A stretch of 64,000 bases of DNA from Candidatus Thiodiazotropha endoloripes (GTDB lineage: Bacteria > Pseudomonadota > Gammaproteobacteria > Chromatiales > Chromatiaceae). Shown in pieces: positions 16,998 through 33,689 of this stretch. The notes under the pieces were generated by a model. That model saw nothing but the letters and a program-made list of their open reading frames with translations, was not told the origin of the DNA and made no database searches. Position numbers and translations under genes: made by a program. Location: the NCBI RefSeq assembly GCF_001708965.1, contig NZ_LVJW01000008.1, positions 1-64,000 of the forward strand, in the 5' to 3' direction. Position 1 is the first letter of the stretch; each line of letters begins with the position of its first letter.

Positions 16998-17205
16998 TGG
17001 GAATTGCCTCATTGCGGTAACCATTTCAGTATCACTGAATCGTCCATATAAAGTGTGGGTACAGCGATTGATCGGGATGAGTTGTTAAGTAAAAACATAA
17101 TTAAATTGTGTTTTATTTCTTTTGTGCAGACTTAAACAGTAGTGTGCAACCATTGAACAAATGGCTAAAAAGCCAGTCGTTATCTATGGGTGCGATAGAT
17201 TTAAT

Positions 17206-17221
17206 TGCAAGAGTGGTGCCA
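17206..17221 (-). promoter_or_regulatory. Sigma-54 promoter of the tup-mob-moe operon
   Basis: On the minus strand the bases read TGGCACC-ACTC-TTGCA, 11 of 12 positions of the TGGCACG-N4-TTGCA consensus, with exact GG-N10-GC spacing. Transcription would start near 17195 and reach tupA after about 200 bp. An NtrC-family activator gene lies directly divergent. Confidence 0.85.
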
Positions 17222-17412
17222 CTCTTATACTAAGCAGAGAACAACGATGAATACTTAAGGTCTGATGAGTATTCGTGGGAGTTGTCATGGTATTTGCAAT
17301 AGCAAATGAACCTGTATTGTCTACTATGTAGATAATGGCAGGATAATAAACACAATTTCTGCATTCTTTAGCTGTCGGTTTCTCCCTTTGCTGTTCAAGG
17401 GAGTCCAAAATT

Positions 17413-17461
17413 GAGACAAATGGTCCCAGATTGACACACTTTTTGTTGGACATTTTGTCTC
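17413..17461. promoter_or_regulatory. Candidate enhancer sites for the sigma-54 activator
   Basis: Two related 15-bp elements: GAGAC-AAATG-GTCCC at 17413-17427 (reverse complement GGGACCATTTGTCTC) and TGGACATTTTGTCTC at 17447-17461, agreeing at 12 of 15 positions, centres 34 bp apart. They lie about 210-250 bp upstream of the tup -12 element and 120-165 bp before the regulator gene. Similar elements occur at 26268-26314 before moaA and the fdh operon. Confidence 0.6.
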
Positions 17462-17579
17462 ACTCAGCCGTCGGTGGATTGCCTTGATAGAACAGTACTC
17501 AATGAATATTAAGACTGAAGAGCTCGTGGTGCGGGATGAGCCCACTAGCGTTTACCACAAGGAAGGTACAACCAACCGA

Positions 17580-18914
17580 ATGACCTCGGTGCTCATCGTG
17601 GACGATGAACCGGGTATCCTCAGCTTTTTGCAAAAAGGGCTGAGACGCTATTTCGGGCTGGTGGAGACAGCCAAGGATGTGGTCACTGCCGAAGAGCTGC
17701 GAAGACACTGCCATTTTGATCTGATTATCACGGACATACGCCTGCCAGGGCACCAGGGTGGGGTCGAGTGGGTGAGAGAGTTGCGTGAGCAGGGTGGAAC
17801 CACCGGGGTTATCTTCATGACCGCCCATGCTGACCTGGAGACGGCCATCTCCGCACTCAGGGCGGGTGCCGAGGACTTCATTATGAAGCCCTTCCGTATG
17901 GAGCAGATGGTGGCATCCGTGGAGCGCTATCTGGATCGACAGAAGATGCAGCGTGAGAATTTTGTGTTGCGACGACAGGTCGATCAGATCTATGACAGCT
18001 CCGGCATCGTTGGCGAATGCCAGCAGATGCACGCCTTGTGTGAAGTGGTCAAACGTGTGGCTCCAATGCCGTCCACAGTGTTGATCGAAGGTGAATCGGG
18101 TACCGGAAAAGAGTTGGCTGCCCGAGCGATACACGACTTAAGCAACCGCTCAGGCAGTTTTGTACCGGTGAACTGTGGTGCGATGAGTGCCGAGTTACTG
18201 GAGAGTGAGTTGTTCGGGCATGTCAAAGGTGCCTTTACCGGTGCTCATCTCTCACGGGATGGACTGTTTACCTATGCCAATGGAGGGACCCTGTTCCTCG
18301 ATGAGATTGGTGAGATGCCTCTGTCGATGCAGGCCCACCTGTTGCGTTCCCTTGAAGAGCGCACCATCCGTCCTGTCGGCTCCAATCGGGAAGTCCCTGT
18401 CGATGTACGGATCATCGCCGCTACCAACCGGGATCTGGGGAATGAGGTGCAAAAAGGGGAGTTCCGTGAAGATCTCTACTATCGACTCAATGTATTGACG
18501 CTGCGCATGCCAGCCTTACGAGAACGAAGTGAGGATATACCGCTGCTGGCCAACCACTTCATGCATACACTGGCATCCGACCTGGGAATCGATGTCCCGG
18601 TTTTGGGTGAGAACGAGATAGAACTGCTGATGCACTACGACTGGCCCGGAAACGTACGGGAATTGAAGAATGTGATTGAGCGCTGTCTGTTGTTGAATCG
18701 CTCGCCGAGTCTTTGCATCACCGCCACAGAACAACAGGATGGTGAGACGATTTCTGAGCAATCGGAAGCTTCATTGCAACTCGAGGCAGTTGAGAAAAGG
18801 CATATCCTGAAGGTGCTGGAACTTCATAGCGGCAACAAGTCGGCGGCGGCCCGGGTACTGGGAATTTCACGCAAGACACTTGAGCGCAAAGCACAAGCCT
18901 GGGGAATCTCCTGA
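17580..18914 (+). CDS. NtrC-family sigma-54-dependent response regulator
   Basis: 444 residues from ATG 17580, chosen because the receiver domain begins there; starts at 17502 (ATG) or 17484 (TTG) would add 26 or 32 residues. Receiver domain with phospho-acceptor Asp52 (IITDIRLPG). AAA+ domain with Walker A GESGTGKE from about 171 and GAFTGA at 217-222, the sigma-54 contact loop. Fis-type helix-turn-helix at the end (NKSAAARVLGISRKTLERK). All parts for activating sigma-54 promoters are present. Directly divergent from tupA and followed by its histidine kinase. I infer that it drives the tup, moaA and fdh promoters described here. Confidence 0.93.
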   Translation: MTSVLIVDDEPGILSFLQKGLRRYFGLVETAKDVVTAEELRRHCHFDLIITDIRLPGHQGGVEWVRELREQGGTTGVIFMTAHADLETAISALRAGAEDFIMKPFRMEQMVASVERYLDRQKMQRENFVLRRQVDQIYDSSGIVGECQQMHALCEVVKRVAPMPSTVLIEGESGTGKELAARAIHDLSNRSGSFVPVNCGAMSAELLESELFGHVKGAFTGAHLSRDGLFTYANGGTLFLDEIGEMPLSMQAHLLRSLEERTIRPVGSNREVPVDVRIIAATNRDLGNEVQKGEFREDLYYRLNVLTLRMPALRERSEDIPLLANHFMHTLASDLGIDVPVLGENEIELLMHYDWPGNVRELKNVIERCLLLNRSPSLCITATEQQDGETISEQSEASLQLEAVEKRHILKVLELHSGNKSAAARVLGISRKTLERKAQAWGIS

Positions 18915-18918
18915 TTCC

Positions 18919-20988
18919 GTGTTGAAACTAATCCGTACCATTCAGAGCACCCTGCGTTATAAAATGCTGGTGCTGGTACTGTTCCCAATTGTTCTGATCA
19001 TGCCGATTGCACTTGTGCTGGCCATCTACTGGGGCTCCCAGTTCAGTTATGAACAGCTGTTTATTAAGGTCAATACGGATCTATCCGTAGCTGAGGATAA
19101 CTTTCACCGTCTGCAGCAGGATTACCTCAATACCCTGGCCCGCCTGGCGGAATCCTATACCTTCAATACCGCACTGGAATCGAAAAGTGGCGGAGTGATT
19201 CATCAACAGCTGGAGAAGATCCGACAGCAGAACGATTTCTCCTATCTGCATCTGCTGGGACTGGGTGGCAGGATCACTTTTTCCACAGATGCTGATCTGC
19301 CTCAGCGAGCCCACCCCTCTCCCTCACTCTTGATTGCCCTGCAGGGAGCGCCGAAAGTTGAGATTGAGATCTTCTCTGCTGAAGCACTTGAAGCCCAATC
19401 CCCGGGATTGGCGAACCGGGTTGCACTGCCATTGCTCGAAACCCCCAGAGCCACACCGACCGATCAGCAAGTGGAGGAGCGGGGGATGATGATCAGGGCC
19501 CTCTATCCGGTGAAGAACTCCAGGGGAGAGGTGGTGGCGATACTCGATGGCGGGGTGTTGCTGAATGGGAATTTCAAATTCGTCGATACCATCAGGGATC
19601 TCGTCTATGGTCCGGGCAGTCTGCCCGAGGGCAGCATCGGAACCGTGACGGTGTTTCTTGATGATGTGCGGATCACAACCAATGTGCCACGCGCCGTGAA
19701 TGAAAGGGCGCTGGGTACCCGGGTTTCTGATGAGGTGCGAACCCAGGTACTGGAGCATGGTGAAAAATGGATCGATCGTGCGTTTGTGGTAAATGATTGG
19801 TATATCTCAGCTTACCAGCCGATTGTCGATGTGAATGGTGAACGGGTCGGCATGCTGTATGCCGGTTTTCTTGAAGCGCCGTCACGTAATGCACTGTGGC
19901 AGGCCTTGGTGGTGCTGATCCTGCTTTTTCTGGCGTTGATGTTGTTATCCTCGCTACTCTCCATCCGGGGAGCAAAATCGATCTTCAAACCCCTGGAGAT
20001 GATGATGAGCGTGGTTCGCGCTACCCGTGAAGGCTATACCAGGCGTATCGGTCAGGTCTCGTCCACCGACGAGATTGGCGTTCTGGCGAAAGAGTTTGAT
20101 CTGTTGCTGGATCTTCTGCAGCAGCGTAACCGGCAGATGCAGGAGTGGACAGATCAGCTTGAGGAGAAGGTGGAGGAGCGAACAACGGAACTGAAGTTGA
20201 AGAATGAGCGATTACTGAGCATGATTCAAACCCTCAAGGAGACCAGAGCACAGCTGATCAATGCGGAAAAACTGGCTGCACTCGGTGAGCTGACGGCAGG
20301 GGTTGCCCATGAGATCAACAACCCGACGGCGGTGATGCTTGGAAACCTGGATCTGCTGGTAGCTGAGTTGGGTAAGGATGCCGAGCCGGTAAAAGAGGAG
20401 ATCGATCTGGTGATTGAGCAGATCTTCCGCATCAAGGATATCATCAACAGTCTGCTACAGTATGCCCGCACCGATCAGATGAGCGGTGAGGCTGCCTATA
20501 CCGATGTCAACAGTGTGATCGAGCACACTTTGGTTTTGGTGCGCCATCTGCGCAGCAAGAGCGATTTTGAAATCAATCTGGATCTGCAGGCAACCAGACA
20601 GGTGAAGATCAATTCCCAGGAGCTGCAACAGGTGTTGGTCAATCTGGTGGTGAATGGGGTCCATGCTCTGCACCAGCGGGATGGGGAGATACGCCTGCGC
20701 AGTTCCGACTGGGAGAGTAAAGGCGTGGTGATTGAAGTGATCGATAATGGCAGTGGCATTGCACCGGAACGACTGGGTTCCATATTCAATCCATTCAACA
20801 GCGGTAAGCCGACCGGTGAGGGCACCGGCCTTGGGCTTTCGGTCAGTTACAGTCTGATCAAAAAATATGGTGGTGATATCAGGGTCAAGTCTGAGTTGGG
20901 TAAAGGTTCCGTTTTTACCATCTGGCTCTATCGGGAGGCCGATATGGTTGATGATGAGAAGAGCTTGTTTGAGCACTATAATTATTAG
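18919..20988 (+). CDS. Membrane sensor histidine kinase partner of the NtrC-type regulator
   Basis: 689 residues from GTG 18919, four bases after the regulator stop; TTG 18880 or ATG 18964 are alternatives. A transmembrane segment right after the start (MLVLVLFPIVLIMPIALVLAIYW), a periplasmic domain of about 300 residues (Cache-like, with GMLYAGFLEAP before the second membrane segment), a second membrane segment (ALVVLILLFLALMLLSSLL), HAMP, a coiled coil (LEEKVEERTTELKLKNERL), a dimerisation domain with phospho-His464 (GVAHEINNP) and an ATPase domain with N, G1 and G2 boxes (NGVHAL, DNGSGI, GTGLGLS). The ligand is unknown; formate, or an oxyanion in the periplasm, would fit the regulated genes but is speculation. 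Confidence 0.92.
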   Translation: MLKLIRTIQSTLRYKMLVLVLFPIVLIMPIALVLAIYWGSQFSYEQLFIKVNTDLSVAEDNFHRLQQDYLNTLARLAESYTFNTALESKSGGVIHQQLEKIRQQNDFSYLHLLGLGGRITFSTDADLPQRAHPSPSLLIALQGAPKVEIEIFSAEALEAQSPGLANRVALPLLETPRATPTDQQVEERGMMIRALYPVKNSRGEVVAILDGGVLLNGNFKFVDTIRDLVYGPGSLPEGSIGTVTVFLDDVRITTNVPRAVNERALGTRVSDEVRTQVLEHGEKWIDRAFVVNDWYISAYQPIVDVNGERVGMLYAGFLEAPSRNALWQALVVLILLFLALMLLSSLLSIRGAKSIFKPLEMMMSVVRATREGYTRRIGQVSSTDEIGVLAKEFDLLLDLLQQRNRQMQEWTDQLEEKVEERTTELKLKNERLLSMIQTLKETRAQLINAEKLAALGELTAGVAHEINNPTAVMLGNLDLLVAELGKDAEPVKEEIDLVIEQIFRIKDIINSLLQYARTDQMSGEAAYTDVNSVIEHTLVLVRHLRSKSDFEINLDLQATRQVKINSQELQQVLVNLVVNGVHALHQRDGEIRLRSSDWESKGVVIEVIDNGSGIAPERLGSIFNPFNSGKPTGEGTGLGLSVSYSLIKKYGGDIRVKSELGKGSVFTIWLYREADMVDDEKSLFEHYNY

Positions 20989-20998
20989 AGCCTGTTAA
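20982..20998 (-). repeat. Diverged copy of a dispersed TTAACAGGCCCTGATAACA element
   Basis: Minus strand reads TTAACAGGCTCTAATAA and overlaps the histidine kinase stop codon. Related copies sit at 42434, 54510 and 60056. Confidence 0.45.
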
Positions 20999-21094
20999 CA
21001 CCAGTCCGGTCCTAAGTGTGAGCGAAGTGAATAATCCAGGTTGCTTAAACGCGCTTCTATAGAAACCTTTCAAAGCAAAAACCTATAACTGTCT

Positions 21095-21628
21095 ATGAAT
21101 AACAACCTACTGCAATTGATCGTCAAAGCCTTGGCGTTTTCCGCCCAAAAGCATCGGGACCAACGACGTAAGGATGTCCAGCAGACACCCTATGTCAATC
21201 ACCCCATCACCTTGATGGATATCCTGGTGAATGAAGGGGAGGTGTATGACACAGAGACACTGATAACCGCCTTGTTGCATGATACGATCGAGGATACGGA
21301 GACCACCTTTGAAGAGATCGAAACCGAGTTCGGATTGGTGATCGCCAGCCTGGTGATGGAGGTGTCTGATGATGCATCCCTCTCCAAGCTTGAGCGTAAG
21401 GCAATGCAGATACACCATGCCCCCAATCTCTCGGAAAAGGCCAAGCTGGTTAAGCTGGCCGACAAAATCGCCAATCTGCGGGACATCGCCCATAGTCCTC
21501 CGAAAGGCTGGGACCTGTCCCGACGACAGGCCTATTTCGATTGGGCCAAGGACGTTATCGATGGCTTGAGAGGCGCCCATCAGGGCCTTGAATTGTTATT
21601 CGATGACGCCTACAGCAAGCGACCCTGA
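21095..21628 (+). CDS. HD-domain (p)ppGpp hydrolase-like protein (MESH1/SpoT-like)
   Basis: 177 residues, ATG 21095. The pattern AFSAQKHRDQRRKD...PYVNHPITLMDIL, then LLHDTIEDT (HD with ED), and KLVKLADKIANLRD matches the hydrolase half of RelA/SpoT proteins and the stand-alone MESH1 family. It lacks the synthetase and TGS domains. The likely reaction is Mn-dependent removal of 3' pyrophosphate from ppGpp, though stand-alone family members may prefer other nucleotides such as NADPH. It stands between the two-component genes and moaB with its own spacers, so co-transcription is uncertain. Confidence 0.88.
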   Translation: MNNNLLQLIVKALAFSAQKHRDQRRKDVQQTPYVNHPITLMDILVNEGEVYDTETLITALLHDTIEDTETTFEEIETEFGLVIASLVMEVSDDASLSKLERKAMQIHHAPNLSEKAKLVKLADKIANLRDIAHSPPKGWDLSRRQAYFDWAKDVIDGLRGAHQGLELLFDDAYSKRP

Positions 21629-23313: not shown

Positions 23314-24228
23314 CTATTCATCCCCCCAAACCAGCTCACCCGCTTCACTCAAATCATAGCCCCCAAGACGCTCCCCCATGGCCTGGCAGTCGGCCGAGCG
23401 AAGACGATTGATCAGATCCTGAAACAAGCGACGGAACCAGATGTTTCTCGGCAGTGCCAGGTCGAAGGACTCCCAACCGAAAGGTATGAAGTCGAGTCCA
23501 TACTCTTGTGCGGCCGCGCGCGCTCCCGGTGCGGCATCGGCCTGATCCATGGCGATACTGGCGGCCGCTTCCCGCTCCGACAGAGCGGTGCAGACCGAGT
23601 TCAACTGCTCGATATTGACGCTGTGTTGGCTGAGTACTTCGAGCAGAAAACGTTGTGCGCCGGCACCGCTTTGTCGCATCGCCCAGCGATGGTTGCCTTC
23701 CAGCAGGGTTTTGGTATCCGGCCTGAGTTCACCCAGTGTGCGATTGACCATCAACCCCTGTTCCCGGCGAAACAGACGAATCAGCACCCATTGCCTGAAC
23801 TGGGGATATTGGCGTAACAGGGCCGGGTGGCGCGTGTTGCTCTCCTGGTTGGGTCCCCAGTGTATCCCGCAGGCATCAATCCGGTTCGCCTGGAGTAGAT
23901 CAAGACCGAGTCGGGTACCTGTCGGCGAGTAGCTGATCAGGGCATGGGCACCGGTCTCCTGGGCAAAGTTCATGATCAGTCGATAGAGCAGGGGATCGTC
24001 ACTGCCGGCAATCACCAGTCGGTTGGTCATCAGTCCGCCATGGGCGGAATCGAGCATCCAGCGATCCACCAGCTCTCTGGGAAACAGCCATTTGCCGGTG
24101 ATCTTGGTTGCCGGAATACGCTCCTCGTTGACCAGAGAGTAGATCTTCTTCTCGTTAAGGTGCAGGTATTCGGCAACCTGTTTAACGTTCATGAATACAT
24201 GCTGGTCCTGTGAGATCACTGCGGCCAT
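23314..24228 (-). CDS. Excisionase-type helix-turn-helix plus PBP-like domain regulator
   Basis: 304 residues, ATG 24228 with a strong AGGAGAGG before it. The N-terminus is a MerR/excisionase-type helix-turn-helix (MNVKQVAEYLHLNEKKIYSLVNEERIPATKITGKWLFPRELVDRW). The rest resembles the cytosolic periplasmic-binding-protein-like domain (PF12727 type) found fused to DNA-binding or MoeA domains in molybdenum metabolism (GSDDPLLYRLIMNF, SYSPTGTRLGLDLLQANRIDACGIHW). Probably a sensor of an oxyanion or cofactor intermediate. Third gene of moaA-fdhD-regulator, 15 bp after fdhD. Confidence 0.8.
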   Translation of the reverse strand: MAAVISQDQHVFMNVKQVAEYLHLNEKKIYSLVNEERIPATKITGKWLFPRELVDRWMLDSAHGGLMTNRLVIAGSDDPLLYRLIMNFAQETGAHALISYSPTGTRLGLDLLQANRIDACGIHWGPNQESNTRHPALLRQYPQFRQWVLIRLFRREQGLMVNRTLGELRPDTKTLLEGNHRWAMRQSGAGAQRFLLEVLSQHSVNIEQLNSVCTALSEREAAASIAMDQADAAPGARAAAQEYGLDFIPFGWESFDLALPRNIWFRRLFQDLINRLRSADCQAMGERLGGYDLSEAGELVWGDE

Positions 24229-24243
24229 ATCCTCTCCTAATAA

Positions 24244-25128
24244 TCAGCTCTTGGCGTGTTCCACCGGTTTCTTTTGATTGCTTTGGTAGCGCACCGGTGG
24301 AATGGCGTCAAAGGAAATATTCTCTGCACCGTTATAGATTAAAAAGTGCTTTCCCTTGGCCCGTGCGATCAGTGTCACGCCGATTCGCTGGGCCAGTTCC
24401 ACGCCCATCTGTGTGGCGCCCGAGCGGGATAGCAGTAAGGGAATGCCCATCTGCGCGACTTTGATCACCATCTCAGAAGTGAGTCTGCCGGTGGTATAGA
24501 AGAGTTTGTCTCTGCCGTGAATATCATCAAGCAGCATATTTCCGGCAATCGCGTCCACCGCATTGTGTCGTCCCACATCCTCGATGAACAGCAGGATCTC
24601 GGCACCCCGGCAGAGGGCGCAGCCATGCACAGCTCCGGCGCGTTGGTAGACTTCGTTGTAGCTGCTGAGATTCTTCAGCAGGGCATAGATACCGGATTGC
24701 CGATGGGTGCATTGCGGCAGTTCGATTTTATCCAGATCCTCCATCAGATCACCGAAAACCGTACCCTGGCCGCAGCCGGTGGTAACCGTCTTGCGGGCGG
24801 TTTTCTGTTGCAGATCGGGAATGCCGTCAAAGGTGGTGACGGCAGCTGATTCGGTCTCCCAGTCCACCTGGACGGCCTTGACCTGATCGATCGTCTTGAT
24901 CAGTCTCTGGTTGTGCAGCCAGCCCAATACCAGCATCTCCGGACGGGTGCCCAGGGTCATCAGTGTCACGATCTCCTGTTTATCCAGATAGACGGTCAGC
25001 GCCCGTTCCGCGGCTACCCGGCCGCGGCGTATCTCACCATACTCATCCACGGCTGTGGCGGGGTGGGCGGCACTCAGGCCCGCATCGGTAAGCTGGGGGC
25101 GATGAGTGTACTCATTTGCCTTGTTCAT
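24244..25128 (-). CDS. fdhD: Formate dehydrogenase sulfurtransferase FdhD
   Basis: 294 residues from ATG 25128, which has AGGTGACC just before it; 25155 would overlap moaA. FdhD hallmarks: TTGCGQGTVFG, GCALCRGAEILLFIEDVGRHNAVDAIAG and KVAQMGIPLLLSRSGAT. FdhD carries sulfur from a cysteine desulfurase to the bis-MGD cofactor, giving the Mo/W=S ligand that formate dehydrogenases need. The CxxC pair that relays sulfur is CALC. Ten bases after moaA; its client is surely the FdhA encoded divergently. Confidence 0.95.
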   Translation of the reverse strand: MNKANEYTHRPQLTDAGLSAAHPATAVDEYGEIRRGRVAAERALTVYLDKQEIVTLMTLGTRPEMLVLGWLHNQRLIKTIDQVKAVQVDWETESAAVTTFDGIPDLQQKTARKTVTTGCGQGTVFGDLMEDLDKIELPQCTHRQSGIYALLKNLSSYNEVYQRAGAVHGCALCRGAEILLFIEDVGRHNAVDAIAGNMLLDDIHGRDKLFYTTGRLTSEMVIKVAQMGIPLLLSRSGATQMGVELAQRIGVTLIARAKGKHFLIYNGAENISFDAIPPVRYQSNQKKPVEHAKS

Positions 25129-25138
25129 TGCGGTCACC

Positions 25139-26161
25139 TCATCCTCCGGTAACATTCATATGCCGGAACAGCACCGGTTGGCTGCTGAGGTCAAACTCAT
25201 GTCCCTTGGGTTTGATCTCCATGGCATCGATGATGGCTTGACGTAAGGGGGCCTCATCAAGTGGATTGGCGCGTACCACACGACGCAGATCCATGGAGTG
25301 CTCCTGGCCCAGGCAGAGCAGTAGCCGGCCTTCTGCGGTCAAGCGCACCCGGTTGCAGTGTTCGCAGAAATTGTGGCTGTGGGGCGAGATGAATCCCACC
25401 CGGCTTTGCGAACCGTTGAGACGATAGTAGCGGGCCGGTCCACCGGTGGTTTCTGTGGTTGGAATCGTTTCGTAGTATTGCTGGATATCCTGTAGAACCT
25501 GGTCACTTGAATAGAATACCTGTTGCCGATCGTGATCGCTGATCACGCCAAGTGGCATCTCTTCAATGAAGCTGATGTCCATACCGCGAGCTTCTGCGAA
25601 ACGGACCAGGTCGACCACTTCATCATGATTGCGATCCTTGAGAATCACCGTATTGATCTTCAGCCGTTTGAAACCGGCCTCCAGGGCGGCATCAATACCG
25701 TTCAGGGTGCGTTGAATGTCGCCAACCCGGGTCATCTCGTGAAAACGATCCGCCTGCAAGGTATCCAGACTGATGTTGATCCGGGTAACACCGGCGGTCT
25801 TCAGGGCCTCGGCATAGCGGGTCAGCTGGGTTCCGTTGGTGGTCAGGGTCAGGTCATTCAGGCCGGGAAGTCTGCCGAGTGCCTGAAACAGTTGCATGAT
25901 GCCGCGACGGGTCAGGGGTTCACCACCGGTAATGCGGATCTTGTTGACCCCCATCTCGACAAAACTTTTGGCCACCCGGTAGAGCTCTTCCAGGGTCAGC
26001 AGCTGCGACCTGGGGACAAACTTCATATCCTCAGACATGCAGTAGACACAGCGTAAATCACAACGATCGGTGACTGAGATACGCAGATAGGTGATCTGAC
26101 GATTGAATCGGTCAGTCAGACGATGGGTTTCCGGTGCCGGTTTATTGTTTGTTTCAGGCAT
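25139..26161 (-). CDS. moaA: GTP 3',8-cyclase MoaA
   Basis: 340 residues, ATG 26161. Radical-SAM cluster CDLRCVYCMSE (CxxxCxxC), the glycine-rich RITGGEPLTR, and a C-terminal second 4Fe-4S cluster (FCEHCNRVRLTAEGRLLLCLG). The chain ends in Gly-Gly (VTGG), the conserved tail needed for activity. It converts GTP to 3',8-cyclo-GTP, the first step of pterin cofactor synthesis. First gene of moaA-fdhD-regulator, divergent from the fdh operon, with a sigma-54-like promoter at 26200. No MoaC/D/E in the window. Confidence 0.96.
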   Translation of the reverse strand: MPETNNKPAPETHRLTDRFNRQITYLRISVTDRCDLRCVYCMSEDMKFVPRSQLLTLEELYRVAKSFVEMGVNKIRITGGEPLTRRGIMQLFQALGRLPGLNDLTLTTNGTQLTRYAEALKTAGVTRINISLDTLQADRFHEMTRVGDIQRTLNGIDAALEAGFKRLKINTVILKDRNHDEVVDLVRFAEARGMDISFIEEMPLGVISDHDRQQVFYSSDQVLQDIQQYYETIPTTETTGGPARYYRLNGSQSRVGFISPHSHNFCEHCNRVRLTAEGRLLLCLGQEHSMDLRRVVRANPLDEAPLRQAIIDAMEIKPKGHEFDLSSQPVLFRHMNVTGG

Positions 26162-26199: not shown

Positions 26200-26213
26200 G
26201 CAAGAGTCATACC
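26200..26213 (-). promoter_or_regulatory. Sigma-54-like promoter for moaA-fdhD
   Basis: Minus strand reads CGGTATGACTCTTGCC: exact GG-N10-GC spacing and a good TTGC, but a weak -24 half. It lies 39 bp from the moaA ATG. Credibility comes from the stronger divergent site at 26390 and the shared elements between them. Confidence 0.55.
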
Positions 26214-26267
26214 GAATTACTATTTCCCGTTTGATGCCCATGCTACGTATGCTCAGCGCAGGGTGGT

Positions 26268-26314
26268 GGTATGAAATGTCTCACCCTGTGAATAAGAACG
26301 GGACATTTTGCCCT
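26268..26314. promoter_or_regulatory. Candidate activator sites between divergent moaA and fdh promoters
   Basis: GGGACATTTTGCCCT at 26300-26314 matches TGGACATTTTGTCTC (17447) at 11 of 15 positions. A second weaker element, GGTATGAAATGTCTC at 26268-26282, has its centre 32 bp away, close to the 34-bp spacing before tupA. They sit 70-135 bp from each -12 element, a usual enhancer distance. Confidence 0.5.
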
Positions 26315-26389
26315 GTTTTGCCACAGCTCCTTTTTTCGGATTATTTTCCGGCGCCGTGAATTCTCTGACGCTTTTCCACATCGGCTTTC

Positions 26390-26405
26390 TGGTACATAAC
26401 TTGCG
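26390..26405 (+). promoter_or_regulatory. Sigma-54 promoter of the formate dehydrogenase operon
   Basis: TGGTACA-TAAC-TTGCG: nine of twelve consensus positions, exact GG-N10-GC spacing. It would start transcription near 26415, about 28 bp before the ATG at 26443, which has AGGAGG. Confidence 0.75.
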
Positions 26406-26442: not shown

Positions 26443-26967
26443 ATGTCTGCATCACAGAAGAGAATCGGCGACGACCTGCCCCGGGAGTTCTCGCTATCGG
26501 TGATTATGCAAAAGTCACCCAGCGCCAATCGGTGGCAGTCCTTTCAATGGGAAGCCGTAGGTGTGCTGGCAGCCGCTAAAGCGAATGCGGCCAATCCTCA
26601 ACATGCGGAGATGATTTACCAACAGCAGGAGACCAGCCGATACCTCCACGCCGGTTTCAAGCTCAGGCTGCATGAGGATGAGTGCGAAAGCTATTACCAC
26701 AATCTGCTCTCTGCAAATCCCTGCTGTTATGTGGTTGCCGATATGTCGGATGATGGTACACCGACACCGTTCATGGTGAGTTTCAGTTTTGATGAGGCTC
26801 ACGCCTATCTGGAGGGTGATGAGGCAATCTACGCCGTTCCGGTTCCTGCCGAGATCTATCAATGGGCTGAGGCCTTCGTACTGGCCCACTATGTGCCAAC
26901 CAAGCGCAGCAAGCGCAAACGGGCGGATTGGCGCAAGCCTGAGGGGGGGTCCCATGGAGCGCGATGA
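26443..26967 (+). CDS. DUF3305 domain protein of formate dehydrogenase cluster
   Basis: 174 residues from ATG 26443, preceded by AGGAGGTG; frames further upstream cross the promoter. Begins with SLSVIMQKSPSANRWQSFQWEAVGVL, typical of DUF3305, a small cytosolic family found beside fdh genes in proteobacteria. No metal-binding motif beyond a CC pair (NPCCYVVAD). The function is not established; a maturation or assembly role for formate dehydrogenase is assumed from constant linkage. Overlaps the DUF3306 gene by 14 bp. Confidence 0.85.
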   Translation: MSASQKRIGDDLPREFSLSVIMQKSPSANRWQSFQWEAVGVLAAAKANAANPQHAEMIYQQQETSRYLHAGFKLRLHEDECESYYHNLLSANPCCYVVADMSDDGTPTPFMVSFSFDEAHAYLEGDEAIYAVPVPAEIYQWAEAFVLAHYVPTKRSKRKRADWRKPEGGSHGAR

Positions 26968-27487
26968 AAAAAAGCCTCTGGATGAGCTGCGAAGCCACCG
27001 TGATGAGGGTTTTATCCGGCGCTGGTCGGATCGAAAACTGGCCTCTCAGCAACCTCTGGTTGAACAGGTCGAAGTGGAACATCCGGCGGAACAACCCTGT
27101 GATGAGGATATGCCACCCCTGGAGTCGCTCAACGACTCCTCCGACTACAGCGGTTTTCTCTCTCCCAAAGTCTCAGAACCGTTACGCAAGATGGCCTTGC
27201 GCAAACTCTTCCACGGCACGGATTTCAATCTCTGTGACGGCCTGGATGACTATGCGGAGGACTTTACCACGTTCGAAGCCCTTGGGGATGTGATTACCGC
27301 CGATCTGAGGCATCAGCTTGAGTTGCAAGAGCAGAAAGAGGCGGAGCAGCAGGCGCTGGCCGAGGCGGAACCGGTTGAATCCGCAACAGCTGCAGTGGAG
27401 AGCAAGGATGAAAACTCACCAGAGGATCCGCGTCCGCTTGCTGAACAACAACCATCCGATGATGACAATCGAGAGAGCCCCGCATGA
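26954..27487 (+). CDS. DUF3306 domain protein of formate dehydrogenase cluster
   Basis: 177 residues from ATG 26954 with a G-rich ribosome binding site (GAGGGGGGG). Core FIRRWSDRKL, then SLNDSSDYSGFLSPKVSEPLRKMALRKLFHGTDFN, then DGLDDYAEDFTTFEALGDVITADLRHQL: the DUF3306 pattern. The C-terminal 50 residues are acidic and low-complexity. Function unknown; always near DUF3305 and fdh genes. Its stop overlaps the next ATG by four bases. Confidence 0.85.
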   Translation: MERDEKKPLDELRSHRDEGFIRRWSDRKLASQQPLVEQVEVEHPAEQPCDEDMPPLESLNDSSDYSGFLSPKVSEPLRKMALRKLFHGTDFNLCDGLDDYAEDFTTFEALGDVITADLRHQLELQEQKEAEQQALAEAEPVESATAAVESKDENSPEDPRPLAEQQPSDDDNRESPA

Positions 27488-29094
27488 ACGAGACGAACAA
27501 CAACACCATTCAACAGATTAATCATCAGGCCCGGCGAGAGGCCCAGGCCGCCATGGGGCGGGTGAGAATTGAAGCCACAGGGCTGGTCAATTACCAGAGT
27601 CGCGGACGCTTGGCAGTGATCGGTGATCATCGGGCGATGGAGATTGCCCCGAGTCTGGGTGATCGTCTGCACCCCATGGTCATTCTCACCGCCGGTGCCG
27701 AAGAGCCGGGTGTTCCGCTGCTGCCGCTGGGAGGGCGGTCGATTGAGATCGATGGTTATCTGGGGGATTTCAAGATCCATCTCGGTGAGGCGGGGCAGGC
27801 CAATTATGAGCTTCTGGCGGTGGATCTGGTCCTTGATCTGTCAACTGAGCCCCTGTTGGATCGGGCCATGACACCGCCTGGTTATTTCCACTGTGCCGGG
27901 GATGATGCTGAACTGGATCAGGTGATTGGTGCGTTGGGAGAGATGAAAGGGCAGTTCGAAAAGCCCCGCTATTTCGATTACGACCCGCAGATCTGCGCCC
28001 ATGGTCGATCGGGAAAAACCGCCTGTAGCCGCTGTCTCGATGTCTGTCCCGCAGAAGCTATCACCAGCCTGTCTGAGACCATCGAGGTGAATGCCTATCT
28101 CTGTCAAGGCGGGGGTGCCTGTGCCACGGTCTGCCCGAGCGGTGCAATACGCTATGTCTACCCCAGCGTAAAGGACACCCTGGAGCGATTGCGAAAACTG
28201 CTCACCGTTTACCGTGATGCAGGCGGGATGGATCCACTGCTGCTGATCACCGGGGAGAGCGATCAACCCTTTACAGAACCGGCGACGGGCAATCACCTGG
28301 TGATGCAGGTGGAAGAGCTGGCCAGTGTGGGGCTGGAGGTCTGGCTCTCGGCCCTGGCCTATGGCGCCAGGGCGGTCTGGCTGGTGGATCGTCAGGAGAT
28401 GTCAGCCGGGGTGAGTGATGCCCTGCAGCAGCAATTGACCACCGCTGAAGAGATTCTGACTGCCATGGGCTATCCTGCCGGGGTGATCAGACTGACCCAG
28501 GCGGACCAGGTTGAAGACCTTTCGCTGATGCCTGAGCTGGAAACAGCCGGTTTTTCCGGACTTGGGGATAAACGTCAGACCGCCTTTCTGGCGATCGATC
28601 ACCTCTACAGTCAGGCAACACAAGCCAAACCTGTGGCCAGTCTGAGTCAGGGCGCTCCCTTTGGCAGTGTCACGGTATCCAGCCACGCCTGCACCCTCTG
28701 TCTCTCCTGTGTCGGTGTCTGCCCGGGGAAAGCGCTGCAGAGCGGTTCGGGGGAGCAGCCGCAACTTCGTTTTGTCGAGGCCAACTGCCTGCAGTGTGGT
28801 CTCTGCACCAGCACCTGCCCCGAGGATGCGATCCAAATTACCCCCAGACTGTTGTTCGATGCTGAGAGCAGAAAGCTGCCGCATACCCTGCACGAAGAGC
28901 AGCCATTTCACTGCGTCTCCTGTGGCAAACCCTTCGCGACCCGCTCGGTGATCGAGAAGATGCGCAGCCGACTCAGTGACCACTACATGTTTCAAAATGA
29001 ACGGGCAATCAGGCGTCTGAGTCTCTGTGATGAGTGCCGTGTGGTTGATATTGCCCAAGACCCGGACGCGATGGATGGACAGATTCGCCAATAA
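27484..29094 (+). CDS. Polyferredoxin-like 4Fe-4S protein of formate dehydrogenase cluster
   Basis: 536 residues, ATG overlapping the DUF3306 stop. Four 4Fe-4S motifs: CSRCLDVCPAEAI and CQGGGACATVCPSGAI in the middle, CTLCLSCVGVCPGKAL and CLQCGLCTSTCPEDAI in the last third, then an extra CVSCGKPF...CDECR zinc-ribbon-like pair near the C-terminus. No signal peptide, so cytosolic. The family accompanies DUF3305/3306 and fdhA in proteobacteria; an electron-transfer or Fe-S/cofactor maturation role is presumed. It is not the FdhB subunit, which is encoded at 33060. Confidence 0.88.
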   Translation: MNETNNNTIQQINHQARREAQAAMGRVRIEATGLVNYQSRGRLAVIGDHRAMEIAPSLGDRLHPMVILTAGAEEPGVPLLPLGGRSIEIDGYLGDFKIHLGEAGQANYELLAVDLVLDLSTEPLLDRAMTPPGYFHCAGDDAELDQVIGALGEMKGQFEKPRYFDYDPQICAHGRSGKTACSRCLDVCPAEAITSLSETIEVNAYLCQGGGACATVCPSGAIRYVYPSVKDTLERLRKLLTVYRDAGGMDPLLLITGESDQPFTEPATGNHLVMQVEELASVGLEVWLSALAYGARAVWLVDRQEMSAGVSDALQQQLTTAEEILTAMGYPAGVIRLTQADQVEDLSLMPELETAGFSGLGDKRQTAFLAIDHLYSQATQAKPVASLSQGAPFGSVTVSSHACTLCLSCVGVCPGKALQSGSGEQPQLRFVEANCLQCGLCTSTCPEDAIQITPRLLFDAESRKLPHTLHEEQPFHCVSCGKPFATRSVIEKMRSRLSDHYMFQNERAIRRLSLCDECRVVDIAQDPDAMDGQIRQ

Positions 29095-29141
29095 AATCGC
29101 CAATGCTTCACCATTCGATTCCCCTTTTGTCATTTTTTTAC

Positions 29142-29160
29142 CCGTGGATCTGGTCCACGG
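29142..29160. repeat. Inverted repeat overlapping the internal sigma-54 promoter
   Basis: CCGTGGA at 29142-29148 and TCCACGG at 29154-29160 with a five-base loop. No T-run follows, so it is a poor terminator; the right arm overlaps the -24 element. Confidence 0.5.
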
Positions 29161-29166
29161 CTTGCA
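29151..29166 (+). promoter_or_regulatory. Internal sigma-54-like promoter before torD-like gene
   Basis: TGGTCCA-CGGC-TTGCA: perfect -12 half, TGG in the -24 half, exact GG-N10-GC spacing, 25 bp before the ATG. It would boost the chaperone, fdhA and downstream genes over the three upstream accessory genes. Confidence 0.65.
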
Positions 29167-29190
29167 ATTGCTATCTCCGAGGAGCGTGTG

Positions 29191-29856
29191 ATGAATGACC
29201 TGAGCCACAGGACGCAAAACAACTCAACAAACAACCAGTGGACATCTGAAGAGGCAGCCTATGCCGGTGAGGCGATCTGCCTGGATGAAGAGCAGCAGTG
29301 TCGGGTCGGTGCCTATGGCATGTTGGCTCAACTGCTCAGGAATCCACCGGATCAGCAGGTGCTGAGTCAGGTTTCGGCATTCACCGGGCTGACTTCGGAG
29401 GTTGATGAGTTGGCTCTGTCGATGACCATGTTGGGACTCTCGGCTGCCAGCTCAAACTGTGGAGCGGTTGACGATGAGTTTCACAATCTGTTTATCGGTA
29501 TGGGTCGGGGAGAGCTTGTGCCATACGGATCCTGGTATCAGACCGGTTTTCTGATGGAGAGGCCATTGGGACGCCTGCGTGATGACCTGGTCCGTTTGGG
29601 CTTTCAACGCCAGCAGGGTGTTACCGAACCGGAAGATCATGTGGCGGCACTGTGTGAAGTGATGGCTATTCTGATTCAGGAATCACAACCCTTTCAGTTG
29701 CAGGCAGAGTTTTTCGAAACCCATATGGCCGGTTGGCTGGAGCGGTTTTTTACGGATTTGAGTGAAGCCAGGTCAGCTGTCTTCTATAAGGCCGTGGGAC
29801 GCTTCGGATCCGCCTATATGGCATTGGAAAAACGATACCTGAATATGACCGTATGA
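29191..29856 (+). CDS. TorD/DmsD-family chaperone
   Basis: 221 residues from ATG 29191 (a GTG directly before it is possible), with GAGGAG upstream. All-helical TorD-family pattern: DDEFHNLFIGMGRGELVPYGSWYQTGFLMERPLGRLRDDL and the EPEDHVAALCEVMAIL signature. These cytosolic chaperones hold the catalytic subunit of DMSO-reductase-family enzymes until the cofactor is inserted and protect its Tat signal. Its client is inferred to be FdhA, whose gene lies 280 bp downstream. Confidence 0.92.
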   Translation: MNDLSHRTQNNSTNNQWTSEEAAYAGEAICLDEEQQCRVGAYGMLAQLLRNPPDQQVLSQVSAFTGLTSEVDELALSMTMLGLSAASSNCGAVDDEFHNLFIGMGRGELVPYGSWYQTGFLMERPLGRLRDDLVRLGFQRQQGVTEPEDHVAALCEVMAILIQESQPFQLQAEFFETHMAGWLERFFTDLSEARSAVFYKAVGRFGSAYMALEKRYLNMTV

Positions 29857-29903
29857 AGTGAAACCAGTAATGATCGAATGACCACCCAACGGAGGAAGAG
29901 TCG

Positions 29904-30116
29904 ATGAAAAAGAAGTCCAGACAAACACCGGATAACCAACGCAGGGCCTTTCTGCAGGGTACCGCCGGAGCTGGTGTCGGTGTGGCCGCCATAGCCGCTC
30001 TTCCCGGTCTGACTGCAGCCTCTCTGGAAGAGGCCAGCGAGGATCAGTCTGAGCATCAGAAAGGATACCGACTGACACCTCATATTGCTGCCTACTACAA
30101 GACCACGATCCGTTGA
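29904..30116 (+). CDS. Formate dehydrogenase region Tat-signal small protein
   Basis: 70 residues with a twin-arginine leader (NQRRAFLQGTAGAGVGVAAIAAL). The mature part is only about 35 residues and ends in HIAAYYKTTIR. Matches the small Tat-associated proteins (TIGR02811 type) that precede fdhA in many proteobacteria. Probably a tiny extra subunit or assembly factor of the periplasmic enzyme; its role is not established. Eighteen bases before fdhA. Confidence 0.88.
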   Translation: MKKKSRQTPDNQRRAFLQGTAGAGVGVAAIAALPGLTAASLEEASEDQSEHQKGYRLTPHIAAYYKTTIR

Positions 30117-30134
30117 GTCATCGAGGGTACCGGA

Positions 30135-33032
30135 ATGAAACTACACAAGATCTCTGACTCTGTAACCGATATCAACAAAGACCCGGCACCATCGAAGCGG
30201 ACGGCCGCTGGTATGACGATGAGTCGTCGCAGTTTTCTGCGCAATTCAGGTTTGATGGCTGGCGGTGCCGCGCTGGCCACAGGTTTTACCCCTGGGATGA
30301 TCAAACGGGCCAAAGCCGCGACGGATGCCGTAGGCGGCCAGGTTGAGTTGAAGAAGACCATCTGTACTCACTGTTCTGTGGGTTGCGGCATCATAGCCGA
30401 GGTGCAGAACGGTGTCTGGACCGGCCAGGAGCCGGCCTTCGATCACCCCTTCAATCTCGGCGCCCATTGCGCCAAAGGGGCCTCGGTCAGAGAGCACGGT
30501 CATGGCGAACGTCGACTGAAATATCCTACCAAGCTGGTCGATGGTAAATGGAAAAGAGTCTCCTGGGAGCAGGCGATCAACGAGATCGGCGACAAGATGC
30601 AGGAGATTCGTGAGCAGTCCGGACCCGATTCGGTCTACTGGTTGGGATCGGCCAAACACAATAACGAACAGGCTTATCTGTTCCGTAAGTTTGCCGCCTT
30701 CTGGGGCACCAACAATGTGGATCATCAGGCACGCATCTGTCACTCCACCACCGTAGCCGGTGTTGCCAACACCTGGGGTTACGGCGCGATGACCAACTCC
30801 TACAACGATATTCATAATTCCCAGGCAATTCTTATTATCGGTGGTAATCCTGCCGAGGCTCATCCGGTCTCCCTGCAACATGTCTTCAAGGCCAAAGAGG
30901 AGAACAACGCACCGCTGATCGTTATCGATCCACGCTTCACCCGTACCGCAGCCCATGCGGATCTGTTTCTGCGTTTGCGTCCGGGTACCGATGTGCCGTT
31001 GATCTGGGGCATGCTCTATCACATCTTCAAAAACGGCTGGGAGGATAGAGAGTTCATCCGTCAGCGTGTCTACGGCCTGGAAGAGGTGAAAAAAGAGGTG
31101 GCCAAGTGGACACCCGATGAAGTGGAACGGGTAACCGGTGTGCCTGAGAACCAGGTCTATGCTGCGGCAAAGACCATGTCGGACAACCGACCGGGTACCT
31201 TCATCTGGTGTATGGGTGGCACCCAGCACACCATCGGTAACAACAACACACGCGCCTACTGCACCTTCCAGCTGGCCCTGGGCAATATGGGAGTTTCCGG
31301 CGGTGGTACCAACATCTTTCGTGGACACGACAATGTTCAGGGTGCCACTGACTTCGGTGTGCTCTCCCACACACTGCCCGGTTACTACGGACTCTCAAAA
31401 GGGGCCTGGGGCCACTGGTCCAAAGTGTGGGATGTGGATTATGACTACATCGCAGGGCGCTTCGATCAGGGAAGTTATGAGCAGTCCAAGGGTAAGGATG
31501 TTCCCGTGATGAACACCAAGGGGATACCGGTATCCCGCTGGATCGACGGTGTTCTGGAAGAGAAGGGTAACATTGCACAGAAGGATAATGTGCGGGCGAT
31601 GGTGCTCTGGGGACATGCACCGAACAGTCAGACCCGCGGTCCGGAGATGAAGAAGGCGATGGAGAAGCTGGACATGATGGTGATCATTGATCCCTATCCC
31701 ACCGTCTCTGCCGTGATGCATGATCGAACCGACGGTGTCTATCTGCTGCCGGCGGCAACCCAGTTCGAAACCTATGGTTCGGTGACCGCTTCAAACCGTT
31801 CCCTGCAGTGGCGGGACAAAGTGATCGAGCCAATGTTCGAGTCTTTGCCTGACCATACCATCATGTATCGGATGGCGAACAAACTTGGCTTTGCCAACGA
31901 ACTGTTCAAGAACATCAAGGTGACCAACGATGAACCGCTGATCGAGGATATCACCCGGGAGTTCAACAAAGGCATGTGGACCATCGGCTATACCGGCCAG
32001 AGTCCTGAGCGGATGAAGAAACAACAGCAGTACTGGGGCACCTTCGACTATACCTCACTGCTCGCTGAGGGTGGTCCCTGTGATGGTGAATTCTACGGTC
32101 TGCCCTGGCCCTGTTGGGGAACCGCTGAGATGGGACATCCTGGAACACCGAATCTCTATGACACCAGTAAACCGGTGGCAAAGGGCGGCCTGACTTTCAG
32201 GGCCAGGTTCGGAGTGGAGCGCAACGGGGTCAGCCTGCTGGCGGACGGTGCCTATTCCAGAGGCTCGGAGATCAAGGACGGCTATCCGGAATTTACCGAC
32301 AAACTGCTGAAGAAGCTTGGTTGGTGGAACGATCTGACTCCTGAGGAGCAAGCTCTTGCTGAGGGCAAGAACTGGAAGACCGACCGCTCCGGCGGCATCC
32401 AGCGGGTCGCGATCAAACATGGCTGTGCACCCTTCGGAAACGCCAAGGCCCGTACCGTGGTCTGGACCTTCCCCGATCCGGTACCGATTCATCGGGAGCC
32501 ACTCTATACCAGCCGCAGGGATCTGGTTGAGAAGTATCCCACCTATGAAGACCGCAAGTCCTTCTATCGTCTGCCGGTACGTTACGGATCGATCCAGGCG
32601 AAGGACTACTCGAAGGACTACCCGATCATTCTCACCTCGGGGCGTCTGGTTGAGTATGAAGGTGGCGGCGATGAAACCCGCTCCAACGCCTGGCTGGCCG
32701 AACTGCAGCAGGATATGTTTGTCGAGATGCATCCGAGGGATGCCAACAACGCCGGGGTCAAGGATGGCGATGATGTCTGGCTGGAAGGTGCCGAAGGCGC
32801 AAAGATCAAGGTTAAAGCCATGGTAACCCGCAGAGTTGGCTCCGGTGTGGCCTTCATGCCGTTCCATTTCGGTGGCCATTTCCTGGGCAAGGATCTGCGC
32901 GACAAGTATCCCGAAGGGGCCGATCCCTATGTGCTGGGCGAAGCCTGTAACACGGCCATGACCTACGGCTACGACTCCGTTACACAGATGCAGGAAACCA
33001 AGTGCAGCCTGTGTCGCATCACGAAAGCCTGA
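30135..33032 (+). CDS. fdhA: Formate dehydrogenase catalytic subunit, cysteine type
   Basis: 965 residues. Twin-arginine signal (SRRSFLRNSG, Arg31-Arg32), so the enzyme faces the periplasm. One 4Fe-4S cluster from Cys77, Cys80, Cys84 and Cys112. The metal ligand is Cys202 followed by His203 (ARICHSTTVAG), encoded by TGT, so this is a cysteine rather than selenocysteine enzyme. Bis-MGD domains follow, ending in a MopB C-terminal domain (EYEGGGDETRSNAWLAELQ). Oxidises formate to CO2 and passes electrons to the Fe-S subunit. Whether the metal is Mo or W is not readable, but the linked tup operon favours tungsten capability. Confidence 0.96.
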   Translation: MKLHKISDSVTDINKDPAPSKRTAAGMTMSRRSFLRNSGLMAGGAALATGFTPGMIKRAKAATDAVGGQVELKKTICTHCSVGCGIIAEVQNGVWTGQEPAFDHPFNLGAHCAKGASVREHGHGERRLKYPTKLVDGKWKRVSWEQAINEIGDKMQEIREQSGPDSVYWLGSAKHNNEQAYLFRKFAAFWGTNNVDHQARICHSTTVAGVANTWGYGAMTNSYNDIHNSQAILIIGGNPAEAHPVSLQHVFKAKEENNAPLIVIDPRFTRTAAHADLFLRLRPGTDVPLIWGMLYHIFKNGWEDREFIRQRVYGLEEVKKEVAKWTPDEVERVTGVPENQVYAAAKTMSDNRPGTFIWCMGGTQHTIGNNNTRAYCTFQLALGNMGVSGGGTNIFRGHDNVQGATDFGVLSHTLPGYYGLSKGAWGHWSKVWDVDYDYIAGRFDQGSYEQSKGKDVPVMNTKGIPVSRWIDGVLEEKGNIAQKDNVRAMVLWGHAPNSQTRGPEMKKAMEKLDMMVIIDPYPTVSAVMHDRTDGVYLLPAATQFETYGSVTASNRSLQWRDKVIEPMFESLPDHTIMYRMANKLGFANELFKNIKVTNDEPLIEDITREFNKGMWTIGYTGQSPERMKKQQQYWGTFDYTSLLAEGGPCDGEFYGLPWPCWGTAEMGHPGTPNLYDTSKPVAKGGLTFRARFGVERNGVSLLADGAYSRGSEIKDGYPEFTDKLLKKLGWWNDLTPEEQALAEGKNWKTDRSGGIQRVAIKHGCAPFGNAKARTVVWTFPDPVPIHREPLYTSRRDLVEKYPTYEDRKSFYRLPVRYGSIQAKDYSKDYPIILTSGRLVEYEGGGDETRSNAWLAELQQDMFVEMHPRDANNAGVKDGDDVWLEGAEGAKIKVKAMVTRRVGSGVAFMPFHFGGHFLGKDLRDKYPEGADPYVLGEACNTAMTYGYDSVTQMQETKCSLCRITKA

Positions 33033-33059
33033 GCGCGGGTTTAACAGAGGATATACGAC

Positions 33060-33689
33060 ATGGCACGAATGAAATTCTATTGTGATCCTGAACGTTGCAT
33101 CGAATGTAACGCCTGTGTGACTGCCTGTAAAAATGAAAACGAGGTTCCCTGGGGAGTCAATCGTCGTCGGGTAGTGACCATCAACGACGGGGATGAGGGA
33201 GAGCGTTCCCTCTCGGTTGCCTGCATGCACTGTTCCGACGCACCCTGTGCAACTGTCTGTCCGGTGGATTGTTTCTATACCACCCAGGATGGTGTGGTGC
33301 TGCACGATAAAGACATCTGTATCGGTTGCGGTTACTGCTTCTACGCCTGTCCTTTCGGCGCACCTCAATTTCCGGAAGATGGCGCCTTCGCCACCCGTGG
33401 CAAGATGGACAAATGCACCTTCTGCGCCGGTGGTCCGGAGTCGGACAACAGCTCGGATGAGCATCGTAAATATGGCTCGAACCGACTTGCTGAAGGTAAG
33501 TTGCCACTGTGTGCAGAGATGTGTTCCACCAAAGCCCTGCTTGCCGGTGATGCGGATGTGATCTCCGACGTCTATCGCAGTCGCATCATCAACCGCAGTG
33601 CCAGTGTGATGGCCCGGGGTGTCTCCTATCGGGAGTCCTCATTCAGGGCACCGAAAAACATGAGCGGTAAAAGCAGCTCAAAAGAGTGA
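33060..33689 (+). CDS. fdhB: Formate dehydrogenase Fe-S subunit
   Basis: 209 residues, ATG 33060 after GAGGATATACGAC. Four ferredoxin-type clusters: CIECNACVTACK, CMHCSDAPCATVCPVDC, CIGCGYCFYACP and the split CTFC...CAEMC. This is the DMSO reductase/FDH beta-type electron conduit. No own Tat signal; it should ride with FdhA. Lies 27 bp after fdhA. No C-terminal transmembrane anchor, unlike E. coli FdnH, so membrane contact must come from the cytochrome subunit. Confidence 0.95.
   Translation: MARMKFYCDPERCIECNACVTACKNENEVPWGVNRRRVVTINDGDEGERSLSVACMHCSDAPCATVCPVDCFYTTQDGVVLHDKDICIGCGYCFYACPFGAPQFPEDGAFATRGKMDKCTFCAGGPESDNSSDEHRKYGSNRLAEGKLPLCAEMCSTKALLAGDADVISDVYRSRIINRSASVMARGVSYRESSFRAPKNMSGKSSSKE

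Follow-up and report, generated by a model that had tools for sequence, protein, structure and literature searches.

A probable formate-sensing two-component system beside a conserved sigma-54 regulon for tungstate uptake, cofactor synthesis and formate dehydrogenase

Which regulator, and responding to which signal, may bring tungstate uptake, cofactor synthesis and formate dehydrogenase (FDH) under common control? This question is raised by a locus of Candidatus Thiodiazotropha endoloripes (NCBI RefSeq assembly GCF_001708965.1, contig NZ_LVJW01000008.1, positions 1 to 64,000 of the forward strand; the whole stretch of 64,000 nucleotides is referred to as the window), in which an NtrC-type response regulator and a sensor histidine kinase are encoded beside tupA. 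An earlier note, made from the letters of this DNA, had placed sigma-54 sites with GG-N10-GC spacing before tupA, moaA, the DUF3305 gene and the torD-like gene, and had assigned all four to this regulator. The four sites are indeed present on the expected strands, as are the activator with its GAFTGA motif and the kinase (Table 1). The comparisons presented below lend good support to a conserved set of sigma-54-controlled genes for tungstate uptake, the cofactor and FDH, which a common enhancer-like site would tie to the regulator, and we consider it likely that, taken as a whole, a formate-sensing two-component system drives this local regulon.

The regulator has the composition of a sigma-54 activator, i.e. 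a receiver, an AAA+ sigma-54 interaction domain with GAFTGA and a Fis-type helix-turn-helix (HTH) domain, and RpoN is encoded in the window genome. GAFTGA is exact in 37 of 40 regulator rows and in 20 of the 23 rows added later. Orthologues were found in 28 of 56 relatives and in 26 of 369 genomes sampled from the class (the window genome is counted in both), and the neighbourhoods of the other 27 of the first set, of 80 loci of named records and of 23 more were inspected. From Vibrio to Thiothrix, the orthologues keep tup, cofactor or fdh genes alongside. The order moeA-mobB-mobA-tupC-tupB-tupA, divergent from the regulator-kinase pair, occurs in Thiothrix, Sedimenticola, Enterovibrio, Photobacterium, Shewanella, Aeromonas and Vibrio (L070-L076, L078-L080), while the region downstream of the kinase varies: fdhD followed by fdh genes (L071, L072, L075, L079 and L080; in L075 also moaA), fdh genes with neither fdhD nor moaA (Thiothrix, L070), fdhD alone before the contig ends (Aeromonas, L078), or no fdh gene within the stretch read (L073, L074 and L076). 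A Thiocystis locus (L077) carries the regulator, a kinase without a sensor domain and moaA. In a tree of 97 regulators, built with a quick method, 28 linked gammaproteobacterial and two rhizobial sequences were split from the 67 others (Shimodaira-Hasegawa-like approximate likelihood ratio test, 99). FdhA of this type is encoded in 23 of the 26 genomes with the regulator vs 21 of the 343 without it (Fisher p 2e-21, a statistic that ignores relatedness).

At the two rhizobial loci (L081 and L082), the same regulator-kinase pair lies beside another FDH with fdhD, which is of the NADH type by Pfam in L081 and was so assigned in L082 through matching fdhA and fdhD hits. The next gene encodes a major facilitator superfamily (MFS) transporter of the lactate/oxalate-formate type (below curated cut-offs), and no tup hit was obtained within the stretch read. 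A sigma-54-like site precedes this carboxylate-type transporter gene at both loci (13437-13651), with an enhancer match in L081 only (L081:13372). As a separate observation, one genome (G325) holds two copies of the regulator (L208 and L218) with near-identical promoter and enhancer.

Taken alone, the sequence of the four sites is weak evidence because the consensus is not enriched in the window (68 matches with up to 2 mismatches vs 66.8 expected) and, genome-wide, TGGYMY-N5-TTGC was found 103 times vs 69 for the reversed pattern. The bare GG-N10-GC spacing was discarded as evidence on the same window count. Conservation was scored on 39 loci, reduced to 28 non-redundant ones by removal of 11 near-duplicates. 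The patterns for this first set were picked after inspection of the regions, and loci fetched later served as an independent test; for these, the tup-side pattern was fixed before scoring (L197 was excluded for want of upstream sequence), and the DUF3305 pattern was wider than those of the first set, also on the later loci. On the tup strand, TGGYAY-N5-TTGC was present at 25 of the 28 non-redundant loci (shuffled mean 0.07; 0 for both the reversed pattern and the opposite strand) and at 10 of 22 later ones (shuffled 0.06). Upstream of DUF3305, the wider pattern was found at 21 of 23 loci (shuffled 0.38; opposite strand 4), including 8 of 10 when only later loci are taken (shuffled 0.17; opposite strand 1), although in L043 and L215 the element lies more than 200 bases from the extrapolated start. 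The corresponding counts are 7/11 for torD (shuffled 0.03; 11/22 with a wider pattern, shuffled 0.3) and 5/17 regions for GGTA-N6-TTGC on the moaA strand (shuffled 0.11; reversed pattern 1). No sigma-54 pattern was found upstream of the control genes HD4 (0/8), moaB (0/7), orf22637 (0/7), moeA (0/23) and the PBP-like gene (0/4), and a promoter of its own for fdhA was rejected (1/11 regions, without an enhancer). A conserved -24/-12 element, as is characteristic of sigma-54-dependent promoters, was thus found, with rpoN present in the window genome, less clearly at torD and moaA; conservation argues strongly for the tupA and DUF3305 sites, moderately for torD and most weakly for moaA. The co-occurrence of the regulator with such elements in relatives, proposed in the earlier note as a check, is borne out by the tup-side and DUF3305 counts.

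A matrix built on orthologous tup|regulator regions gave the palindromic consensus TGGGACAAATTGTCCCA. It matched 22 of the 28 training regions, 14 of 22 later tup|regulator regions (shuffled 0.4), 8 of 17 moaA/fdhD|fdh regions at 9 bits or more (shuffled 0.51) and 13 of 23 DUF3305 regions (shuffled 0.32; later ones 6/10, shuffled 0.09). Upstream of torD at other loci, a match was obtained in 6/22 cases at 9 bits (shuffled 0.3) and in 4/22 at 11 bits or more (shuffled 0.1). The palindrome is conserved as far as Vibrio: pairs 22-33 bp apart, with a sigma-54 element downstream, precede the 4Fe-4S gene at two Vibrio, one Photobacterium and one Enterovibrio locus, and a consensus-near pattern with 0-1 mismatch marks the tup and fdh sites only in one Vibrio genome (G057) and these plus one other place in another (G056). 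For the control genes, a simple palindrome with 2 mismatches gave 0/8 (HD4), 0/7 (moaB), 0/7 (orf22637), 0/11 (fdhA), 1/23 (moeA) and 1/4 (PBP-like), and the reversed pattern gave 6/23 upstream of moeA. In the window genome, the sole further match with one mismatch (C7:123855, L003) lies inside a decarboxylase-like reading frame and was rejected as an enhancer candidate. The conserved palindromes stand at the places expected for enhancers upstream of sigma-54 promoters, and we infer that the adjacent regulator binds them. The earlier claim that the adjacent regulator acts through sigma-54 on tungstate uptake, cofactor genes and FDH is hence supported by the palindrome shared between tupA and moaA/DUF3305 and by the linkage from Vibrio to Thiothrix; its extension to all four promoters is not, since the region upstream of torD in the window genome has no enhancer match.

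Part of this regulon is already in print. In the available parts of a study of Vibrio (PMC9817140), VP1510-VP1515 are down 3 to 5 log2 in an rpoN mutant, the hypothetical proteins VP1501 and VP1508 are down 1.5 and 1.8 log2, and V. cholerae ChIP-seq (chromatin immunoprecipitation sequencing) peaks are noted for VP1501, VP1508 and VP1510. VP1501 is most likely tupA, because its printed site, present in 14 of 196 genomes of that genus, falls between tupA and the regulator at all six loci read, with the enhancer in the same gap. The V. parahaemolyticus and V. cholerae RpoN regulon therefore resembles the one described here in the RpoN dependence of an orthologous fdh cluster and of VP1501 (probably tupA); it differs in that those parts of the study name no activator, enhancer site or signal and leave VP1501 and VP1508 hypothetical.

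The signal is probably formate rather than tungsten or molybdenum, as judged from the sensor. The periplasmic part of the kinase was modelled (AF2, 20 rows) as a Cache sensor with a mean predicted local distance difference test score of 90.3, and the best 50 of 1731 Foldseek matches are mostly Cache sensors. Among these, 8py0 and 8py1, titled as sensor domains of chemoreceptors with bound formate, appear from ranks 8 and 23 on; the top rows are other Cache sensors (e.g. LuxQ and DctB), and therefore the fold alone names no ligand. A profile search of 177,635 distinct PDB sequences returned seven at E ≤1, of which only 8py1 (2.2e-5) and 8py0 (5.5e-5) were below 1e-3, followed by DcuS (0.035). 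The window kinase shares with both the pattern R-x2-T-x8-R-x2-G-T, and its R264/T267/T280 have, in the alignment, the +3/+16 spacing of 8py0, 8py1 and PacF R142/T145/T158. According to the parts of PMC12501870 at hand, R115 of Atu0526 binds formate and changes of these three PacF residues affect formate binding; a formate-binding sCache_3_3 chemoreceptor domain is also reported in the accessible portion of PMC12415202. The arginine and both threonines, i.e. the conserved residues of formate-binding Cache domains, are invariant across all 20 aligned kinase rows, and the motif is present in 47 of 49 linked kinases, many of them near-copies and some with longer loops (41 by pattern, four more on a later check, and L074 and L076 by alignment). 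Seven unlinked kinases are without it, a weak control since they are distant. One linked kinase (L210, G351) is kept with its formate motif replaced, and possibly recognizes another ligand.

A kinase of this type was not found with every regulator. In whole-genome searches at E 1e-40 or 1e-50, part of which scored only three candidates per genome, no such kinase was found in 12 regulator-bearing genomes with a readable regulator (G017, G022, G024, G027, G029, G031, G048, G096, G103, G236, G287 and G345), nor was the PF17202 sensor family in the six of these tried; completeness is low in some (G022 83%, G029 88%). Ten of the 12 receivers are short of at least one of five signature residues, and in four the phospho-acceptor Asp is replaced by Ala, Ser or Glu; those of G017 and G048 are intact. 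Among the 51 other rows, which include the window, the second copy in G325 and near-copies, 47 have DDDTK, three have DDDSK (T to S) and one is partly unread, with no Asp or Lys lost. The kinase-less counts are not independent, because kinase absence corresponds to about five changes on the tree, two of them forced by well-supported branches. The pattern fits a kinase acting on this regulator and, after loss of the kinase, an activator that may no longer need phosphate. G011 was omitted from the receiver count owing to a regulator split into two overlapping matches (L069); no kinase was found in this genome, possibly a recent decay of the system.

The proposed mechanism would run as follows. 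Periplasmic formate would bind the membrane-proximal Cache module of the kinase, which would then phosphorylate the NtrC-type regulator; this would bind the palindromes, often paired about 22-34 bp apart, upstream of the sigma-54 promoters, and would fire tupABC-mobAB-moeA, the DUF3305/fdh genes and probably moaA-fdhD, so that metal uptake, cofactor synthesis and enzyme would rise together when the substrate is present. Gene linkage, orthology, the conservation of promoters and palindromes, receiver decay without a kinase and the formate-type motif were computed here; formate as the ligand, phosphotransfer, binding of the palindromes and activation are read from them. On a broader scale, we are inclined, with little more than even confidence, to see a widespread formate-sensing master switch for tungstate/molybdate (W/Mo) uptake, cofactor synthesis and FDH in many Gammaproteobacteria, which in several lineages would have lost the kinase and let the receiver decay while keeping the AAA+ core, DNA-binding domain and enhancers, becoming a phosphorylation-independent activator; across such lineages, formate metabolism would grade naturally from inducible to constitutive.

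Other explanations have to be weighed against a formate-driven regulon. Chance matches, in keeping with the missing excess of the consensus in the window, are a very improbable source of the sites, as conservation far above shuffles, including at loci outside the training set, already speaks against chance for tupA and DUF3305. A stronger alternative, which we would not expect but take seriously, is that control by the regulator stops at tup and moaA/DUF3305, and that torD-fdhAB of this genus depends on another activator or on read-through: the torD promoter is conserved and has no palindrome in the window, even if a few other loci have one. However, torD belongs to the same gene cluster and, in the accessible Vibrio data, an rpoN mutation lowers the torD and fdhA orthologues along with the gene upstream of them. 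Concerning the signal, it is improbable that the system senses tungstate/molybdate supply or cofactor demand, the enzyme being co-regulated through its need for metal. The tungstate transporter is directly divergent from the regulator and cofactor genes are in the same set, as this would predict, but the sensor resembles Cache domains solved with formate and has their motif, the rhizobial pair adjoins another FDH and a carboxylate-type transporter without a tup hit in the stretch read, and the HTH and PBP-like protein of the same locus would be a better candidate metal sensor. Another small carboxylate (acetate, lactate or oxalate) is an unlikely ligand as well; many carboxylates serve as ligands across the Cache class, and the rhizobial transporter scores best to an L-lactate family, just below its cut-off, yet formate receptors have the same conserved R/T/T residues, and it is a formate dehydrogenase that is linked to the system.

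Several observations, besides the lack of consensus enrichment and the limited depth of part of the kinase search, weigh against formate sensing and the regulon as proposed. The tup-strand pattern is absent from 12 of the 22 later loci; most of these have no tup gene found beside the regulator, or scant upstream sequence or a contig end, but L205 and L207 miss it despite having tup genes. In the window, the palindromes between moaA and DUF3305 are degenerate copies scoring 9.3 and 2.9 bits, and the torD region reaches 1.6 bits at best. The exact matches in the window genome are this locus's own two sites, from which that pattern was made, so that their top rank proves nothing, and whole-genome palindrome matches at 2 mismatches do not exceed the reversed-pattern control. 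RpoN gave no shift on the VP1510 promoter in an electrophoretic mobility shift assay in vitro, and the effect is termed indirect in the parts of PMC9817140 consulted. The formate motif is missing in two of the 49 linked kinases (L077, which has no sensor domain, and L210) and lies in the membrane-proximal module, unlike that of PacF, where formate occupies the membrane-distal module (PMC12501870, as far as available); sCache_3_3 domains with other ligands may also lack solved structures. Finally, at least 12 genomes retain the regulator with no such kinase found, and therefore formate sensing is not required for its retention, while an independent-pairs sign test relating the loss of the kinase to the decay of the receiver had two pairs and thus no power.

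FhlA, the regulator of the Escherichia coli formate hydrogenlyase regulon, is one protein that senses cytoplasmic formate and activates sigma-54 promoters from enhancer sites. The system described here would resemble it in a formate-induced sigma-54 activation of an FDH system from enhancers, and differs in its periplasmic kinase and NtrC-type regulator, in the enzyme and in the inclusion of metal uptake and cofactor genes; with a receiver domain and a separate kinase, it falls outside the FhlA family of cytoplasmic one-component activators and is, by analogy, a two-component counterpart that would work like FhlA without being one. TunR and ModE-type regulators govern tungstate or molybdate uptake and related enzymes, the likeness being in these targets. 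TupR/TunR and ModE-type proteins are one-component metal-responsive regulators and are not known to be sigma-54 activators, whereas here a sigma-54 activator has a separate kinase. The available part of PMC10102598 cites tupR as a metal regulator. The formate-binding sCache receptors (8py0 and 8py1), PacF and Atu0526, as far as the sources at hand go, share the R-x2-T ... G-T residues with the same spacing, but they are chemotaxis receptors, whereas the module considered here belongs to a histidine kinase, of which it forms the membrane-proximal part.

The earlier suggestion that a dedicated system for W/Mo supply would be new stands in part: the signal is more likely formate, and RpoN dependence of the Vibrio orthologues is in print in the parts consulted, while searches confined largely to open-access literature turned up no named activator of tup/fdh genes in these bacteria, nor its site or signal, and no description of a formate-sensing kinase beside formate dehydrogenase. 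The locus thus offers a candidate activator, DNA site and signal for a set of sigma-54 promoters already reported to depend on RpoN in Vibrio; a single circuit would couple detection of the substrate with the supply of metal, the making of the cofactor and the enzyme itself. The palindromes and the presumed ligand residues open each step to testing, with the kinase-less genomes as natural controls.

Table 1. Features of the tup-fdh locus in the window (positions counted from its first nucleotide).
Feature	Position	Strand	Remarks
mobA, mobB, moeA	12308..14736	-	cofactor synthesis
tupC	14733-15446	-	named from position; tupB and tupC span 14733..16213
tupB	15446-16213	-	
tupA	16149..17024	-	tungstate-binding protein; 249.7 of 400 bits, under the curated cut-off of its family
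Sigma-54 promoter of tupABC-mobA-mobB-moeA	17207..17221	-	TGGCACCACTCTTGC; exact to TGGCAC-N5-TTGC, the sole exact site of the four
Enhancer-like palindrome 1 (upstream activating sequence, UAS)	17412..17428	unstranded	TGAGACAAATGGTCCCA; between tupA and regulator
Enhancer-like palindrome 2 (UAS)	17446..17462	unstranded	TTGGACATTTTGTCTCA; 34 bp from palindrome 1
NtrC-type response regulator	17484..18914	+	receiver with phospho-acceptor D84; GAFTGA at 249; Fis-type HTH; start codon uncertain
Sensor histidine kinase	18880..20988	+	periplasmic sCache_3_3 sensor; phospho-acceptor His477
Formate-receptor-type motif codons	19669..19719	+	RITTNVPRAVNERALGT; R264, T267 and T280 of the kinase
HTH_17 and PBP-like regulator	23314..24228	-	PF12727
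fdhD	24244..25155	-	
moaA	25139..26161	-	
Putative sigma-54 promoter of moaA-fdhD-HTH/PBP-like	26203..26217	-	CGGTATGACTCTTGC; 3 mismatches, weakest of the four
Enhancer-like palindrome 3	26267..26283	unstranded	TGGTATGAAATGTCTCA; 9.3 bits; between moaA and DUF3305
Weak enhancer-like palindrome 4	26299..26315	unstranded	CGGGACATTTTGCCCTG; 2.9 bits; 32 bp from palindrome 3
Sigma-54 promoter of DUF3305-DUF3306-4Fe4S genes	26390..26404	+	TGGTACATAACTTGC; 1 mismatch
DUF3305, DUF3306, 4Fe-4S protein	26443..29094	+	26443-26967, 26954-27487 and 27484-29094
Conserved sigma-54-like promoter of torD-fdhA-fdhB	29151..29165	+	TGGTCCACGGCTTGC; 2 mismatches; without enhancer in the window genome
torD-like chaperone, fdhA, FDH3-type beta subunit	29188..33689	+	fdhA 30135-33032; beta subunit 33060-33689

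The HTH_17 and PBP-like protein might sense molybdate/tungstate or the cofactor on behalf of the same genes; its gene, encoded after fdhD, is present at 8 of the 12 kinase-less loci. The kinase gene is followed by a small HD_4 (RelA/SpoT-like hydrolase) gene (21095-21628), which occurs in 15 of 20 loci read in the genus (L043-L061 and L069). An Rfam scan of window positions 12000-38000 gave no match. Two tandem arrays lie near the start of the window, with about 16.5 copies of a 294-base unit (1-4859) and about 20 copies of a 36-base unit (5299-6041).

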